Source of the DNA: an uncultured Dehalococcoidia bacterium
GTDB lineage: Bacteria > Chloroflexota > Dehalococcoidia > Lucifugimonadales > G958296245
Direction of reading: 5' to 3'
DNA length: 64,000 nucleotides
NCBI GenBank assembly: GCA_958296245.1
Contig: OY282458.1
Span: 2,546,197 to 2,610,196 of the forward strand
In this document: in pieces, positions 28,965-37,704 of the stretch
How positions within the stretch are numbered: position 1 is the stretch's first letter
Layout of the letters: every line of letters begins with the position of its first letter
Position numbers and translations under genes: made by a program
Notes under the pieces: model-generated
The model's database searches: none
Told to the model about the DNA's origin: nothing
The model's input: only the letters and a program-made list of their open reading frames with translations

Positions 28965-29101
28965 CCTTGCCCCCTCAGTCCATACCAGATTATAAGTACC
29001 GCTTCGTTAGGGGGTCAAGAATAGTAGCTAACGACGCACCGATTTCCTGCCTGGCGTCCTCCAATGAGGTAAGATGTTACCGACACCTTTGGGAGGCTGG
29101 A

Positions 29102-30364
29102 ATAAATACGCTCAAGAGCTTGGGGATAGTCGTCGCCCTCTTCGTCGTCGTGGCGGCCGTATCGGTCGCCCTCAGCCTGTTCCTACGCCGGTCTCCTGAG
29201 TATCCCGACACGCAGGCCCCGACTGCAACCATCGAGGTCACCCCCGACCCTCAGGACACGGCCGCCGCCGTAGAGCCAACGCCTCCTGAGACCGCCGTTC
29301 CCCGCGAGGGCGGGACGACGCCGCCCGGCGCGGCCCCCAGCCGGCCCGGACGTGAGTACACCATCGTAGAAGTACTCCCCAAGAACTTCATTCCCGCAGT
29401 CAACTTCCCCTACTTCTACGACGCCGAAGAGGCCGGAGATGTCTACGACGACGACGAGTTGATCATCGGGCTGGACCTCGGCGGCGAGCGCCGGGCGTAC
29501 TCGGTGCCCTATCTGAGCGGCAGGGAGATAGTCAACGATACAGTGGGCGAGGTCAAAGTCGCGGTCACGTGGTGACCGCTCTGCTTCACGGGCATAGTCT
29601 ATGCCCGAGAGATCGAAGGGCAGGAGTACAAGTTCGGGGTTTCAGGGAAGCTGATCATGAACGCCCTGGTCATGTACGACGACCGCACCGACTCGTTGTG
29701 GAGCCAGTTCACCGGGGAGGCCGTGGAGGGGCCCCTGAAGGGGGCCGCCCTGGGCTTCATCCCCTCGCAGCTAATGACGTGGGGCGCTTGGAAGGAACTG
29801 TACCCGGACACCCTGGCGCTGGAAAAGGTCCCCTACGGCGACTTCGGCTTTGAGTCGTCCGATGACTGGGACGAGGACGCACGACGGGCCAGCCTCAGCG
29901 GCGACCCGTATCTCCCCTACTACCACACGGACGCGCGCGGCGTCCTCGGCGAGACGAACCCGGACAGCAGGCTATACGCCAAGGAGATGGTCGTAGGCAT
30001 CGCCGGCGCGGAGACCCACCGCGCCTACTCGTACCGGGACTTGAGGGAGCTCCCGGTGGTCAACGACAACCTGGAAGGCCAGGCCATAGTGGTCACCGTG
30101 AACGTCGACGTGCTCGCGACGGGCGTCTACTACAGGAGCCCGGGCGGACGCAGCCTGACCTTCGAGCAGTCCCCTGAAGACCCGCTGCTGATGGTAGACG
30201 GCGAGACGGGCACGGTGTGGCAAAAGGCGAGTGGGCTCGCCATATCCGGCTCCCTGCGGGGAACGCAACTGGAGAGAGTCCCCTTCATGACGGCGTTCTG
30301 GTTCGCCTGGACCGACTTCAACCCCGACACCGAACTCTACACGCCGCCGGACGCAGGGCCGTAG
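29102..30364 (+). CDS. DUF3179 protein, candidate selenoprotein (in-frame TGA at 29573-29575)
   Basis: Read through the TGA, the frame gives a 420-residue DUF3179 protein: an N-terminal membrane anchor (GIVVALFVVVAAVSVALSLFL), a Thr/Pro linker, then the DUF3179 domain in two related halves (LIIGLDLGGERRAYSVPYLS / GREIVNDTVGEVKVAVTW and KEMVVGIAGAETHRAYSYRDL). The TGA falls where the family has the first Cys of CPLC, giving U158-P-L-C161. A perfect hairpin (29589-29607, CGGGCATA-GTC-TATGCCCG) begins 13 nt after the TGA with its G-first loop at 21 nt, within bacterial SECIS limits. Codons stay family-like on both sides, arguing against a pseudogene. No ATG is suitably placed: GGGAGG (29091-29096) points to ATA at 29102, which would give an MNTLKSLG start; TTG at 29120 is the alternative. 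The redox role is inferred. Confidence 0.8.
29589..29607 (+). promoter_or_regulatory. Bacterial SECIS-like hairpin downstream of in-frame TGA
   Basis: CGGGCATA (29589-29596), loop GTC (29597-29599) and TATGCCCG (29600-29607) form a perfect 8-bp stem. The loop begins 21 nt after the TGA and its first base is G. These are the rules used for bacterial SECIS elements (loop 16-37 nt from UGA, G in the first two loop bases, upper stem of at least 4 bp). The element lies inside the coding sequence, as bacterial SECIS elements do. Confidence 0.7.
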
Positions 30365-30394: not shown

Positions 30395-31309
30395 TCAGGC
30401 GGCCCCTCCCCACTTGGCGCCCACGCTGGACTCGAACGCGGACATCCGCGACAGAGGCTCACGAGGCCAGGTGCGCTTCCATGAGTCCTCGACGCTGACC
30501 TCCAGCCTGCCCAACCCCTCTATCTCCATCTCGATGCGGTCCCCGTCCTGGATCGGCCCCAGCCCGACGTGATTGGTGCCCGTGGCGATGATGTCGCCCG
30601 GCTTCATGGTGGTGATCCAGGTGACGTACTCGACCACCTCGTACACGGAGCGGGCCATGTCGTCGGTGCGCAGATCCTGCCGCAGGTCTCCGCTGACCCA
30701 CAGCTTGACCCCCAAGGCCTGGGGGTCCGCTATCTCGTCGGCGGTGACGATTGCCGGGCCTATGGGCGCGAAGGTGTCCCATGACTTTTGCCACCAGAAG
30801 CTGTTGTTGCCGTTGGGGTTCAGCCCTCGGGCCGATACGTCGATGAAGTTCAGGAAGCCGAACACGTAGCTCTTGGCGTCAGCCGCTCTGACGTTGCGGG
30901 CCTTCCTGCCTATGACGACGCCCAACTCAGCCTCGTGGTGGAAGTGAGGGGCCGGGGCGTCAGGAAGTACTACCGTGTCCCCGGGCCCTATGATTGCGCT
31001 CGGGGACTTCAGGAACGAATCGCGGTCGCCCTTGCTGGAGCCGCCTTCCATGTAGTTGCCCGCCATGCAGACGATCCTGCCGGGCTCCGGCAGCGGCGGG
31101 CGCAGGCGCACTTGGCCCACGGGCACGCCGCCATTGGCGTCGACCGCTGACTCGATGGCGCTGCGGTACTGATCGAACCGCTCGATCATCCCGGCCATCC
31201 ACGTCTGCCCGTCGATATGAGGCACGTCCGATACCACCTCGGAAATGTCCACCACGTTGCCGCCCTTCAACACCCCTGGAACAAAGTCGTCGAACAAAAC
31301 GAGTTTCAT
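30395..31309 (-). CDS. Fumarylacetoacetate hydrolase (FAH) family protein
   Basis: This 304-residue protein has the FAH fold signatures: IVCMAGNYMEGG, the metal site HHEAELGVVIGRKARNV (the E-x-E pair), the YVFGFLNFIDVSARG segment, and GDIIATGTNHVGLG at the C-terminus. The family hydrolyses C-C bonds of beta-diketo acids or acts as isomerase, decarboxylase or hydratase in aromatic-acid catabolism, usually with Mg or Mn. The exact substrate cannot be read from sequence. It starts at ATG with GGGGAG upstream and converges with the DUF3179 gene. Confidence 0.92.
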   Translation of the reverse strand: MKLVLFDDFVPGVLKGGNVVDISEVVSDVPHIDGQTWMAGMIERFDQYRSAIESAVDANGGVPVGQVRLRPPLPEPGRIVCMAGNYMEGGSSKGDRDSFLKSPSAIIGPGDTVVLPDAPAPHFHHEAELGVVIGRKARNVRAADAKSYVFGFLNFIDVSARGLNPNGNNSFWWQKSWDTFAPIGPAIVTADEIADPQALGVKLWVSGDLRQDLRTDDMARSVYEVVEYVTWITTMKPGDIIATGTNHVGLGPIQDGDRIEMEIEGLGRLEVSVEDSWKRTWPREPLSRMSAFESSVGAKWGGAA

Positions 31310-31424
31310 GCGCCGGATCTCCCCTCAAGTCTTTCCTGATGCCGTCCGCCGCGATTCTAGCACACAATCCGGCGGCGTCCGACTGATACAATGCCCCGAC
31401 GAATCTCGCGACTGGAGGGAGCAA

Positions 31425-32540
31425 GTGCTTCAACAGGCAACGTACAAGAGGGATGAGCGCACGTTAACGGCTACGGTGGAGCGCACAGACGTGCTGCTCA
31501 AGTCGGAGGACATCCTGAATTTCCCGAGACTGATCGAACTGGAAGGCGACCGGCTCGTCCTCCCGTATGGACGGGGCCGGCACGGCGGCAGCGAGACACG
31601 GCCCGCCGCCGTATCGGACGACCTCGGCAAGACCTGGGCCGACGCCCCCGCGGGGTTCCCCATGGCGGACAACGTCCAGACCTCGGGCATCCTGGGCTAC
31701 CTGCGCGACGGCGTCATCGCATACATCGACGTCTTCCCCGCCAACGTCAGGTGGTCCAAGGCCGAGCACGGGGCCTACCACCGGAGCGAGGCGGGAAAGG
31801 TGAGCGACCCGGCCTTCCGGTTCCGGCGGTTCTCCAAGCGGGGAGATCTCATTGACGACGGAATCCTGAAGATCGAAGGCGTGCCTTGGGACCTCGCGTC
31901 CTACGAAAACTACGGCACCCTGCTGGAATTGGAGAATGGCGACCTTGTGACCGCCTTCGAAGCACAGGTGGGATTCCCGTCGGAGGAGCGGTTCACGTTC
32001 ACGACCTTCATCGGACGCTCCACCGACGGCGGCAAGACCTTCCAACACGTGCAGACCTTCGATCCCGCGACGCCGGACGGCTACGTCGGCGACGAGGGGT
32101 TCTGCGAGCCCGACATGGAAATCCTAGCCAACGGCGACATGCTGTGCATCATGCGAACCGGCCAGAGGTCGCCGATGTATCAGTCCCGCTCGACGGACGG
32201 CGGGCGCACGTGGAGCGAGCCGGAATCCGCTGGCTGGCAGGGCGTCAAGCCGCACCTCCGCCTGCTGAGCAACGGCGTCCTAGCGTGCAGTGCGGGCCGC
32301 GGCGCCTACGGGTTCCCGCAGGTCACACACGCCATGTTCAGCATGGACGGCACAGGCAGGCACTGGGAATACCCCCTCGCCTTCCACACCGGCCCAGGGT
32401 GCTCCTACACCTCGAACATGGAGCGCGGCGGCAAGCTCTACGTCGCCTATTCGCACTCCTCGTTCACGCGAGAGTCGGGCGCCTACACCCTGCCCTACCA
32501 CGCCATCAAGTGGGCCGTCATCGACGTCGAAGTATCCTGA
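31425..32540 (+). CDS. Sialidase/BNR-repeat family exo-hydrolase-like protein
   Basis: The 371-residue protein is a predicted six-bladed beta-propeller with Asp-box sequences (STDGGKTF, STDGGRTW) and conserved propeller strands such as GVLACSAGRGAYGFP. The GTG at 31425 is chosen because GGAGGGAG lies 5 nt upstream; the longer open frame overlaps the FAH gene start. No signal peptide is seen, so it may be cytoplasmic. The family includes exo-sialidases and plant-pathogen-type hydrolases; the substrate is unknown. Confidence 0.85.
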   Translation: MLQQATYKRDERTLTATVERTDVLLKSEDILNFPRLIELEGDRLVLPYGRGRHGGSETRPAAVSDDLGKTWADAPAGFPMADNVQTSGILGYLRDGVIAYIDVFPANVRWSKAEHGAYHRSEAGKVSDPAFRFRRFSKRGDLIDDGILKIEGVPWDLASYENYGTLLELENGDLVTAFEAQVGFPSEERFTFTTFIGRSTDGGKTFQHVQTFDPATPDGYVGDEGFCEPDMEILANGDMLCIMRTGQRSPMYQSRSTDGGRTWSEPESAGWQGVKPHLRLLSNGVLACSAGRGAYGFPQVTHAMFSMDGTGRHWEYPLAFHTGPGCSYTSNMERGGKLYVAYSHSSFTRESGAYTLPYHAIKWAVIDVEVS

Positions 32541-32600
32541 ACATAAAACGGGCCGTCCAGTCACGGCCAAGCCTAGGAATCGCACAGCGGGGGTAACCGA

Positions 32601-33923
32601 TTGGGCCGACCGGGATGGTACGACGAACATCCCTCCGCCTGCACCTGCAAAGCCTGCAACGAAGGCGGGCGCAGGCAAAGCTCTGGATATGGCGGCGGGC
32701 GTAGGCAAGGGTCTGGCACGGGAAGGGGTGGATTCCCTAAATGGCTGATAGCCGTGGTTGTGGTTGCCCTTGGTGTAGGCGTGTGGTTGTGGATGGATGG
32801 GAACCGCCCCTCAACGGAGCTGACCAGCATACTCACGTCTACGCTGAGCAGCACACCCACGCCCACGCCCACACCCACACCCATACCCGTCCCTAACCTC
32901 CGGCACGTCGAGGAAAAGCGCTACATGCTGGAGCTCATCAATGCCGAGCGCACCCGGGCCGGGCTCAACCCCGTTGCCCTAGGCGACAACGCCGCGGCTC
33001 AGTTGCACGCCGAAGCGGCGTTGGAGCATTGCTTCTCCTCTCATTGGGGCGTAGACGGCCTGAAGCCCTACATGCGTTACAGCCTCGCAGGAGGACACCA
33101 GTCCAACGGGGAAAACATGAGCGGGCTCAACTATTGCATTAGAGCGTCCGACAGGTACAGAGCCATCGCCTATATCCCCCTAGAGATCCGCGAGACTATG
33201 GACGGCTTGATGAGCAGCCCGGGCCACCGGGACAACATCCTGAGGCCGTGGCACAAGGCGGTCAACATAGGACTCGCCTGGGACCTTTACAACTTCAAGG
33301 TCGTCCAGCACTTCGAGGGCGGCTACGTCGAGTACGAGCAGCTGCCGGTCATCGAAAACGGCATCCTCACGATGGCGGGGACGGCGAAGAACGGCGTTGT
33401 CCTGAGCGGAGACCAGGACCTGGGCGTTCAACTCTATTACGACCCGCCGCCTCACCCTCTCACGCAAGGACAGGTCTCACGAACCTACTGTTACAGCCAG
33501 GGACTTGAAATAGCCTCTCTGAGGCCGCCGCTGAGTGGAGGTTGGTTCTACGACGAGGACGAATACACGACGACCTACAAGCGTTGCCCCAACCCGTATG
33601 CCGTCCCCGCGAATTCGCCCGCGCCGCGCTCGCCTGACGAGGCAAACGTCTTCCATCAGGCGGCCTACGACTCCAGCCAAGCCGGTGTGGAGATGACCGT
33701 CACCGTGCCGTGGATTACCGCGTCCGCGTGGAGCGCAACAGGTGTGACCTTCTCTGTGGCGGCGCACGTGGGGAGCCTGCTGGACGTGCATGGCAACGGC
33801 GTCTATACGGTCGTGGTATGGGGCTGGCTACCTGAGGCTGGGACGAGCATCGTCATCTCCGAATACTCCATCTTCCACGGTGTAACCTCGCCGGACACCT
33901 ACGGCCACGATCCTGGCCCCTAG
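32601..33923 (+). CDS. Membrane-anchored CAP (SCP/PR1) domain protein
   Basis: This 440-residue protein starts at TTG with GGGGG upstream. Its N-terminus has C14, C16 and C19 (CTCKAC) in a Gly/Arg-rich segment, then one membrane helix (about 47-66), a Thr/Pro stalk (TPTPTP) and an extracytoplasmic CAP domain (about 105-240) with HAEAALEHCFSSHWG, DGLKPYMRYSLAGG, NGENMSG and SSPGHRDNIL. The C-terminal 200 residues form a further beta-rich region without a recognised family. CAP proteins act in the envelope or outside the cell, but the biochemical role of the bacterial ones is mostly unknown. Confidence 0.88.
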   Translation: MGRPGWYDEHPSACTCKACNEGGRRQSSGYGGGRRQGSGTGRGGFPKWLIAVVVVALGVGVWLWMDGNRPSTELTSILTSTLSSTPTPTPTPTPIPVPNLRHVEEKRYMLELINAERTRAGLNPVALGDNAAAQLHAEAALEHCFSSHWGVDGLKPYMRYSLAGGHQSNGENMSGLNYCIRASDRYRAIAYIPLEIRETMDGLMSSPGHRDNILRPWHKAVNIGLAWDLYNFKVVQHFEGGYVEYEQLPVIENGILTMAGTAKNGVVLSGDQDLGVQLYYDPPPHPLTQGQVSRTYCYSQGLEIASLRPPLSGGWFYDEDEYTTTYKRCPNPYAVPANSPAPRSPDEANVFHQAAYDSSQAGVEMTVTVPWITASAWSATGVTFSVAAHVGSLLDVHGNGVYTVVVWGWLPEAGTSIVISEYSIFHGVTSPDTYGHDPGP

Positions 33924-34052
33924 TGAGGTTCCAGCCCACCCGCACCTATGGGGAGGTGGGGGCTCTTCCATGACCCGAGGGGCTGCGCCCCTCTGCACTC
34001 CCGGGGGAGCAGACACGCTGTGCGACTGTGAGCAAAGCAGGCAGATGGACGG

Positions 34053-34230
34053 GCGTCTGCACACATACTTGCAGTTTCCACCATGACACTTGCAGTTTCC
34101 CGGTAGGGCGCTGCGCCGCTACAGGTAAATCAGACCGAACAGCAAGCGTCTGCACACATACTTGCAGTTTCCGCCATGATACTTGCAGTTTCCCGGTGGG
34201 GTGATACGCCGTTACAGGCAAATTAAGACC
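34053..34230. repeat. Tandem 93-bp repeat (two copies)
   Basis: Two direct copies begin at 34053 and 34146, both with GCGTCTGCACACATACTTGC. Within each copy the string CTTGCAGTTTCC occurs twice, about 19 bp apart. They fill the 620-bp gap between the CAP gene and the BNR gene. The rest of that gap shows no gene. Confidence 0.7.
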
Positions 34231-34545
34231 GAGATACGGACGTATGCAGAGGCTCGGAAGGCCTCACCAGCACAGGTTCAGATTCTCTAACCCCTTGATG
34301 CAGCCATACGTGCTCATGCGCGGGCTGGAGAGCGGCCTTCTCGATATGAAAGACGTCGCCGTCTTCACTACGGGTTTACGCCAAGAGGCCGAGGGGAGTT
34401 GAGGGGTAGGCCGAACAGTGGGCGCCGGCTCGCTCCAGCCGCGTTAGCATAACCTACAGGAACCACGCCGCCCACTGTTCGGCGTCACGCACTGGGATAT
34501 AATGCCGTGTGCGCTCCCGTACACCACACAGAGACGAGGTCCTAC

Positions 34546-37500
34546 ATGGCAGAGACCCAGGCCCCTCACGACATGCTCGCTACGCTGCGCTGGCGCTGCA
34601 TCGGCCCCCCCAGGGGCGGCAGGGTCGTCGCCGTCGCAGGACACCCTGAGGAGCCGATGGTCTTCTACTTCGGGGCCTGCGCCGGGGGCGTCTGGAAGAC
34701 CACCGACGGCGGCACGTACTGGGACAACGTGTCGGACGGCTACTTCAACACCGCCTCGGTCGGCGCGATCGCCGTCTCGGAGTCCGACCCCAACGTAGTC
34801 TACGCCGGTACGGGCGAGTCCTGCATTCGGGGCAACGTGTCGCCCGGCGACGGCGTCTACAGGTCCACTGACGGCGGCGCGACCTGGTCCCACGTGGGAC
34901 TCTCCGACACCCGCCACGTAGCCCGGGTGCGCGTACACCCCAAAGACCCGGACCTCGTGTACGTCGCCGCCCTAGGTCACGCATACGGACCCAACGAGCA
35001 GCGCGGGATATTCCGCTCTGCCGACGGCGGCGCGACCTGGGAGAGGGTTCTGTTCAGAAGCTCCAGGGCAGGCGCAATCGACCTGTCGATGGACCCCAAC
35101 AACCCGCGCGTCCTCTACGCAAGCACGTGGCAGGCGCTCAGGCAGCCGTGGCTCTTCAGCAGCGGAGGCCCTGACAGCGGGTTCTTCAAGTCCACCGACG
35201 GTGGGGACACGTGGACGGAAATCACGGACAGGCCGGGGCTCCCGCACGGTGTCAAGGGCCGGATCGGCGTCGCGGCGTCACCCGCGAGATCCGGGAGGGT
35301 CTGGGCAATCGTCGAGGCCGAGGAACGCGGCGTGTACCGCAGCGACGACGGCGGGGACACATGGGAAAAGACCAGCGACGAGGCGGCGCTGCTTCAACGC
35401 CCCTGGTACTACAACCACGTATTCGCCGACCCCGCGGACGCCGAGACCGTCTACGTGCTCAACCTGAAGGCGTGGAAATCCACCGACGGCGGGCGCACCT
35501 TCACCGAGATAACGATGCCGCACGGAGATAATCATGACCTCTGGATAGACCCCCGCGACAGCAGGCGCATGATCGAAGGCAACGACGGAGGAGCATGCGT
35601 CTCCTTCAACGGCGGCGACACCTGGTCCACCATCCACAATCAGCCGACCTCGCAGTTCTACCACGTCACCACCGATAACCAGTACCCCTACCGCGTCTAC
35701 GGCACCCAGCAGGACAACAGCGCCATCAGCGTCCCCAGCAGGTCATACAAGGGCGGCATCACGTGGCAGGACGCCTATACCGTGGGCCACTCGGAGAGCG
35801 GACACGTCGCCGTCCACCCTGACGACCCGAACATCGTCTACTCAGGAGCAATAGGCAGCGCTCCCGGCGGCGGCGACACCATGCTCAAGTACGACCACCG
35901 CTCCGGCCAGAGCCAGATCGTATCGATCTGGCCCGAGCCCATGCTCGGAGTGGGGCCAAAGGAGTACAGATACCGCTTCCAATGGACGTACCCTCTCTTC
36001 TTCTCCCCCCACGACTCGAACGTCCTGTACGCGGCCGGCAACAGGGTATTCCGCAGCCGGGACGGAGGAATGAGCTGGGAGACGGTAAGCCCGGACCTGA
36101 CCAGAGCCGACGAGAGCAAGATGGAGGCATCGGGCGGGCCCATAACCCTCGACACCTCCGGCGTGGAGGTCTACGGCACCATCTTCTCCCTGGCGGAGTC
36201 CCCCCACGTGCGCGGGGAGCTCTGGGCCGGCTCCGACGATGGCCTCGTGCACGTCTCCCGCGACGACGGGCAGACTTGGACGGAGGCCACGCCGAAGGGG
36301 CTTCCTGAGTGGAGCCTGATCACCGCAATACGGCCTTCGGCGCACGCGCGCGGGACGGCATACCTCTCCGCGACCCGCTACAGGCTGAACGACAACAGCC
36401 CGTACCTATTCAAGACCACCAACGGCGGCGCTGCGTGGGAGTGCATCTCCGACGGCATGCCCACGGACCAACTGAGCCGCATCGTGCTCGAAGACCCGAC
36501 CCGGCCCGGCCTGCTGTACGTAGGCACCGAGTCCGGGGTGTACTTCTCGTTCGACGACGGCGAGTCGTGGCGGCCTCTTAGCGGCAACCTGCCGGTGGTC
36601 CCGGTGCACGACCTGGTCGTGAAGGACGACGAGTTGGTCGCCGGCACCCATGGCCGCTCTGTCTGGGTGCTGAATGGCCTCTCCCTTCTCAGGCAGATGG
36701 CCGACGCCGACGAGGAGGCCAATTTCCACGTCTTCAAACCGGCCGACACTTACCGGGCTTCGTCATGGGAGGAGTCGGGCAGGGAGCCGCCCAAAGGCAA
36801 GAGCTATACCCTGCCATCCTCCGACCCCGCAACCTTCTACGAAGACTTGGGCCCCTCCGGGGAGGTCCGCAGGCGCTTCCTGAACGCAGGGGCCAACCCG
36901 CCCAACGGGGTCGTCGTCAGCTATTACCTGAAGGACAAGCCGGAGGGCCGGACGTCCTTGTCGTTCTTGGACTCGTCCGGCGAGGTGATTGCCCGCTACT
37001 CGTCCATCGAAGGCGAGGAGGGCGAGCCTTCGTTGCCCGCCGAGGCGGGCATGAACTCCTTCGTGTGGAACATGCTCTACCCGGCGTCCCACCCCCTGGA
37101 GGCCGAAGACTCAGCAAGCAGCCGCATACGCCCGCTTGCGCCGCCCGGCGTCTACAGGGTCCGCCTCACCCTGAACTGCGGCGAGGCCGAGCAGGAGTTC
37201 AAGCTGCTGAAGGATCCGCGCGTCCCGGCGAGCCAAGACGATCTCCAAGAGCAGTTCGCGCTCCTCCTGAGGGTGCGCGACAAGCTCTCCGAGGCGCATG
37301 ACGCGGTCAGGCGCGTCAGGCGGATACGCGCTCAGGTGGACGAGTGGCTTGCTCGCGCCGCCGCCGAGGGCAAACGCGGCGATCTGGCAGGCCCAGCCGA
37401 CTCACTCCTCGAAAAGCTCGCCGCCGTCGAGGAGCAGCTCATCCAGACTAAATCGAGAACGAGGATGGACTGGCTCAATCTACCCACCAGGCTGGACACG

Positions 37501-37704
37501 AAGCTGATAGCGCTCGCCACGGTGATCGGGGGGGCCGACTCGGCCCCTACCAGGCAGTCCTACGAGGTCTTCGACTACCTGTCTGGGCTTGTCGGCGCCC
37601 AGTTGACCGCCCTGCAGGACGTCATCGACGCCGACCTCGCAGACTTCTGTAGGCTCGTCGGCGACCTGGGCATACCGCCCGTTACGACCAAGCCCGCCCC
37701 GTGA
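34546..37704 (+). CDS. BNR/VPS10-type beta-propeller glycosyl-hydrolase-like protein
   Basis: This 1,052-residue protein contains many Asp-box propeller repeats (STDGGATWSHV, SADGGATWERV, STDGGDTWTEI, SDDGGDTWEK, SRDGGMSWETV, TTNGGAAWECI) over residues 20-720, forming sortilin/VPS10-like propellers. A beta-sandwich plus helical C-terminal region (about 750-1050) follows. This architecture is usually annotated as BNR-repeat glycosyl hydrolase. No clear signal peptide follows the chosen ATG; the frame extends upstream to 34507 without a better start. Its stop overlaps the MFS start, so the two genes are coupled and the transporter may move its product. Confidence 0.88.
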   Translation: MAETQAPHDMLATLRWRCIGPPRGGRVVAVAGHPEEPMVFYFGACAGGVWKTTDGGTYWDNVSDGYFNTASVGAIAVSESDPNVVYAGTGESCIRGNVSPGDGVYRSTDGGATWSHVGLSDTRHVARVRVHPKDPDLVYVAALGHAYGPNEQRGIFRSADGGATWERVLFRSSRAGAIDLSMDPNNPRVLYASTWQALRQPWLFSSGGPDSGFFKSTDGGDTWTEITDRPGLPHGVKGRIGVAASPARSGRVWAIVEAEERGVYRSDDGGDTWEKTSDEAALLQRPWYYNHVFADPADAETVYVLNLKAWKSTDGGRTFTEITMPHGDNHDLWIDPRDSRRMIEGNDGGACVSFNGGDTWSTIHNQPTSQFYHVTTDNQYPYRVYGTQQDNSAISVPSRSYKGGITWQDAYTVGHSESGHVAVHPDDPNIVYSGAIGSAPGGGDTMLKYDHRSGQSQIVSIWPEPMLGVGPKEYRYRFQWTYPLFFSPHDSNVLYAAGNRVFRSRDGGMSWETVSPDLTRADESKMEASGGPITLDTSGVEVYGTIFSLAESPHVRGELWAGSDDGLVHVSRDDGQTWTEATPKGLPEWSLITAIRPSAHARGTAYLSATRYRLNDNSPYLFKTTNGGAAWECISDGMPTDQLSRIVLEDPTRPGLLYVGTESGVYFSFDDGESWRPLSGNLPVVPVHDLVVKDDELVAGTHGRSVWVLNGLSLLRQMADADEEANFHVFKPADTYRASSWEESGREPPKGKSYTLPSSDPATFYEDLGPSGEVRRRFLNAGANPPNGVVVSYYLKDKPEGRTSLSFLDSSGEVIARYSSIEGEEGEPSLPAEAGMNSFVWNMLYPASHPLEAEDSASSRIRPLAPPGVYRVRLTLNCGEAEQEFKLLKDPRVPASQDDLQEQFALLLRVRDKLSEAHDAVRRVRRIRAQVDEWLARAAAEGKRGDLAGPADSLLEKLAAVEEQLIQTKSRTRMDWLNLPTRLDTKLIALATVIGGADSAPTRQSYEVFDYLSGLVGAQLTALQDVIDADLADFCRLVGDLGIPPVTTKPAP

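Follow-up and report, generated by a model that had tools for sequence, protein, structure and literature searches.

A DUF3179 gene with a probable selenocysteine codon, a covarying SECIS-like hairpin and three paralogues in a Dehalococcoidia genome

Introduction

Reviews of 2022 (PMC9312934) and 2026 (PMC13188914) list DUF3179 in their tables of selenoprotein families, with the motif UxxC/T, and credit it to Zhang and Gladyshev (2007, Nucleic Acids Res 35:4952), whose work concerned the symbiont of Olavius algarvensis. As a selenoprotein family DUF3179 is already known, and the gene described here, from a 64,000-nucleotide stretch of DNA of an uncultured Dehalococcoidia bacterium (the window), adds a member to it. 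Beyond that, this analysis adds a four-fold paralogy within one genome, a spread across the host order, a covarying hairpin downstream of the UGA codon, an internal duplication and a lead on the fold. Our literature search returned no paper that joins DUF3179 with Rieske proteins, and none that joins selenoproteins with SAR202.

Results

The DUF3179 gene and its surroundings

The gene lies on the forward strand at 29102–30364. Its frame comprises 420 codons (29102–30361) followed by a TAG terminator (30362–30364), and the only internal stop is a TGA at 29573–29575. The initial annotation had given the same span; its first codon turns out to be ATA rather than ATG, GTG or TTG. There is no ATG or GTG in frame near the beginning of the gene, and the nearest ordinary start codon is a TTG at 29120. 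A GGGAGG sequence resembling a ribosome-binding site (29091–29096, forward strand) precedes the ATA at 29102, which is the likely translation start, with TTG 29120 as the alternative. Because the start codon may be either of the two, the exact N-terminus of the protein is uncertain. When the TGA is read through, the Pfam family DUF3179 (PF11376) spans the protein from profile position 2 to 292 of 292 with 269.6 bits (E 4.7e-80), well above the gathering cut-off of 27 bits that defines membership.

The genes pheS, pheT and moeA lie at one end of the DUF3179 gene and an FAA-hydrolase gene at its other end, all of them encoded on the reverse strand. Past the FAA-hydrolase gene, two BNR/sortilin-type repeat proteins (431 and 1065 amino acids) and a CAP-domain protein are encoded consecutively at 31245–37704.

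Near its N-terminus the protein has a hydrophobic segment (GIVVALFVVVAAVSVAL; 29123–29173, forward strand) with a Kyte-Doolittle mean of 2.96 over 17 residues, a likely membrane anchor. A segment of this kind is present in 59 of 61 Sec-containing homologues, 19 of which have a lipobox-like motif nearby. From this segment we infer that the DUF3179 protein is likely anchored by its N-terminus and extracytoplasmic.

The UGA codon replaces a cysteine codon

To place the internal stop within the family, 103 DUF3179 sequences from the window, its own genome, the host order and other phyla were aligned. The motif column holds Sec (TGA) in 64 rows, Cys in 39 and no other residue. Most TGA genes were selected for carrying that codon, which means that 64:39 should not be read as a frequency; the informative result is the position of the TGA within the gene, at this column. 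The UGA at 29573–29575 (forward strand) corresponds to Sec158 of a UPLC motif and lines up with the first Cys of CPLC in the homologues. The partner, Cys161 (TGC, 29582–29584, forward strand), is Cys in 100 of the 103 rows and Thr in the other three. Elsewhere in the alignment, residue 141 is Arg in the window protein versus His in 93 of 103 rows, a point that counts against the proposed reading of the gene.

The initial annotation had located a single in-frame TGA at the first Cys of the DUF3179 CxxC motif, had described the frame beyond it as open and family-like, and had considered a chance nonsense mutation or sequencing error unlikely to fall on that codon. Inspection of the frame, the PF11376 match across the whole domain and the recurrence of TGA at the same codon in 64 aligned genes bear out each of these points. 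One DUF3179 gene that was chosen for its TGA (L109, G157:C36) has Cys at the motif and its TGA elsewhere (TGSKUNYAGV), for which a frameshift, an error and a second recoding site are candidates.

A covarying SECIS-like hairpin follows the UGA

A SECIS-like hairpin with an 8-bp stem and a GTC loop (CGGGCATA-GTC-TATGCCCG) occupies 29589–29607 on the forward strand and starts exactly 13 nt past the TGA (14–32 nt downstream). A perfect 8-bp hairpin with a G-first loop at this distance, matching the rules for bacterial SECIS elements, had been noted at the outset; the hairpin is present as described and recurs, covarying, at the equivalent position of Sec homologues. Perfect Watson-Crick stems of at least 8 bp at a SECIS-like distance follow 0.4% of the TGA trinucleotides in the window. 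Seven pairs of the stem were scored. In the 64 Sec genes 87.7% of them are formed, compared with 58.5% (sd 1.7) when synonymous codons are resampled; in the 39 Cys genes the corresponding values are 42.1% and 38.5% (sd 2.1), indicating that these genes lack the hairpin. Among 30 diverse Sec sequences, two-sided (compensatory) changes occur at five of the seven pairs, and the covariation score is 0.421, versus 0.046–0.104 when the partner strand is slid. An Rfam search found no family at this site.

The hairpin seems to have shaped the protein as well. The codon for residue 168 (29603–29605) belongs to the stem. Asp stands at this residue in 31 of the 39 Cys forms, but 62 of the 64 Sec forms have Ala, Ser, Gly or Arg there, a shift that is likely caused by selection on the RNA.

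Selenocysteine machinery, paralogues and spread

A search of the genome for the decoding machinery found tRNA-Sec, SelA, SelB and SelD, all four components that the initial annotation had named as a check. The SelD gene carries a UGA of its own within ASCAGUASK (L070 679–1791, reverse strand; genome C1:4795–5715), a position at which SelD proteins are known to carry either Sec or Cys. Judged by its sequence, the SelD encoded here is a selenoprotein too.

The search for homologues with a TGA at the same position, proposed along with the first reading of the gene, recovered three further DUF3179 genes in the same genome. Each of the four has one TGA, at the motif, which reads UPLC in the window gene and UPLC, UTLC and UPIC in the others. 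A SelA-related PLP-enzyme gene (L068 3157–4683, reverse strand) with a score of 53.7 bits, below the cut-off, adjoins the third DUF3179 paralogue.

DUF3179 is present in 131 of 197 genomes of the host order. Among the genomes listed, at least 68 have a TGA copy (leaving out that of L109), and at least 63 of these list SelA; the five with a TGA copy and no SelA among those listed are 60–88% complete. In other classes of the phylum, DUF3179 genes with a single TGA, identified by their number of TGA codons, are patchily distributed, and the UPLC motif also occurs in a Zixibacteriota genome (L035).

In a phylogenetic tree of 102 rows, the window gene falls within a supported grouping that comprises 45 Sec rows and no Cys row. 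The Sec/Cys label changes four times on this tree, with at least three changes forced by supported branches, compared with about 31 changes when labels are shuffled; the tree is rooted at its midpoint, so the direction of these changes cannot be read from it. This repeated exchange between Sec and Cys pinpoints a functional residue in a domain of unknown function.

An internal duplication and a predicted Rieske-like fold

DUF3179 consists of two homologous repeats. The N-terminal repeat (29384–29836, forward strand) bears the UPLC motif, and the C-terminal repeat (29969–30346, forward strand) is homologous to it and lacks a UxxC. Profile comparison of the two DUF3179 repeats with hhalign (99.9%, E 9e-34), together with a blastp match between the halves of the window protein (E 2e-15, 30% identity), shows that the domain is an internal duplication at the level of sequence.

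AlphaFold2 models built from nine sequences had a mean pLDDT of 85.8 over the whole domain and 88.5 over the N-terminal repeat. Among the matches listed in VIA-align comparisons, the best for the N-terminal repeat was the NirD-type structure 3c0d (Z 8.0, rmsd 3.7, 98 residues), and the C-terminal repeat reached Z 8.9 (2qpz: rmsd 3.1, 92 residues). All 50 matches listed for both models are Rieske-type, with Z scores of about 6–9, a size that is possible for common arrangements, and Foldseek E-values for the DUF3179 models were above 0.01. The CxH...CxxH ligands of a [2Fe-2S] cluster are absent from the window protein. When the repeats and their homologues were scanned against Pfam with hmmscan, no Rieske family matched, even at E-values as high as 10. 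Compared by profile with 30 Rieske domains taken from the host order, the N-terminal repeat gave no match and the C-terminal repeat a weak one (32% probability). A sequence search for a solved DUF3179 structure found none (best E 0.05), and an NCBIfam search assigned the DUF3179 protein to no family. In the models, Sec ends a strand and the rest of the UxxC forms a turn into the next strand.

These models offer a lead, not proof, that both repeats adopt a Rieske-like β fold without iron-sulphur ligands. We also raise a more tentative idea, which is less probable than not: that DUF3179 forms a cluster-less, tandem-duplicated branch of the Rieske fold, with the UxxC selenenylsulphide or CxxC disulphide as the redox site that replaces the [2Fe-2S] cluster, and that it is a secreted protein expanded into several Sec paralogues in the host order. 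Rieske-domain genes themselves number 35 to 59 in each of four genomes of the host order (G003, G006, G007 and G018), compared with one in the genome studied here.

Discussion

Taken as a whole, the locus is very probably a DUF3179 selenoprotein gene decoded by SelB and tRNA-Sec via the downstream hairpin, whose product would be a thiol/selenol oxidoreductase anchored outside the cytoplasm and built of two predicted Rieske-like repeats. The internal UGA is almost certainly read as selenocysteine, and this decoding is backed as strongly as sequence comparison allows. The UGA at 29573 would be translated by SelB and tRNA-Sec, guided by the hairpin as the predicted SelB target, such that the product would carry Sec-Pro-Leu-Cys where its relatives have Cys-Pro-Leu-Cys. 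Held by its N-terminus and facing outside the cytoplasm, with its redox pair confined to the first of the two homologous repeats, the protein would then cycle between Sec-H/Cys-SH and a selenenylsulphide. The most likely role is that of an extracytoplasmic thiol/selenol redox protein with a selenenylsulphide couple, because Sec and Cys exchange at an otherwise invariant site, a partner Cys accompanies them and UxxC selenoproteins are generally known for such chemistry.

The strongest competing explanation accepts the selenoprotein and changes its chemistry, with the UxxC binding or trapping a metal ion instead of undergoing thiol redox reactions. A mercuric transport protein and a cation ATPase, with xxU or UxxC motifs, share published selenoprotein tables with DUF3179, and a hairpin turn that carries both Cys and Sec could hold a soft metal. 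However, the CxxT of three homologues is more in keeping with one reactive Cys than with a metal site of two thiolates, and no metal gene adjoins the DUF3179 gene; we regard metal binding as unlikely.

A second explanation, in which the DUF3179 gene is decaying or mis-assembled and its TGA arose by nonsense mutation or by an error of sequencing, is very improbable. A fresh nonsense mutation would indeed appear as a lone internal stop in an intact frame, as is seen here, but TGA occupies this codon in 64 independent aligned genes, the four of this genome among them, the frame downstream is conserved and a covarying hairpin follows. The TGA codon shared across homologues and paralogues leads us to reject a pseudogene. 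Least credible of all is a genome-wide reassignment of UGA to an amino acid such as Trp without Sec decoding, which has nothing beyond the open frame in its favour and which we reject since TGA is the ordinary terminator of five of the eight neighbouring genes, homologues without the TGA have Cys and never Trp at the motif column, and the genome contains Sec machinery.

With UGA read as selenocysteine, ordinary gene calling would truncate four genes here and dozens across the order at this codon, and a conserved extracytoplasmic protein would go unseen. For tests of DUF3179 function, the duplication and the predicted fold provide a starting point.

The window gene shares its Pfam family, PF11376, and its UxxC motif with the DUF3179 selenoproteins of Zhang and Gladyshev (2007), as that work is represented in the citing reviews; compared with the family so described, it comes from a different lineage and is accompanied by four-fold paralogy and an order-wide spread. 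Its decoding resembles the bacterial SECIS/SelB system of Escherichia coli fdhF in combining a UGA, an in-gene hairpin just downstream with a G in the apical loop, and tRNA-Sec together with SelA, SelB and SelD. Unlike fdhF-type elements, the stem in this family varies freely in sequence through compensatory change, and its recognition by SelB is predicted. Finally, modelling suggests that each DUF3179 repeat may share the fold of Rieske ferredoxins and NirD, but each differs from these proteins in lacking the CxH...CxxH ligands and in carrying a UxxC in the first repeat.
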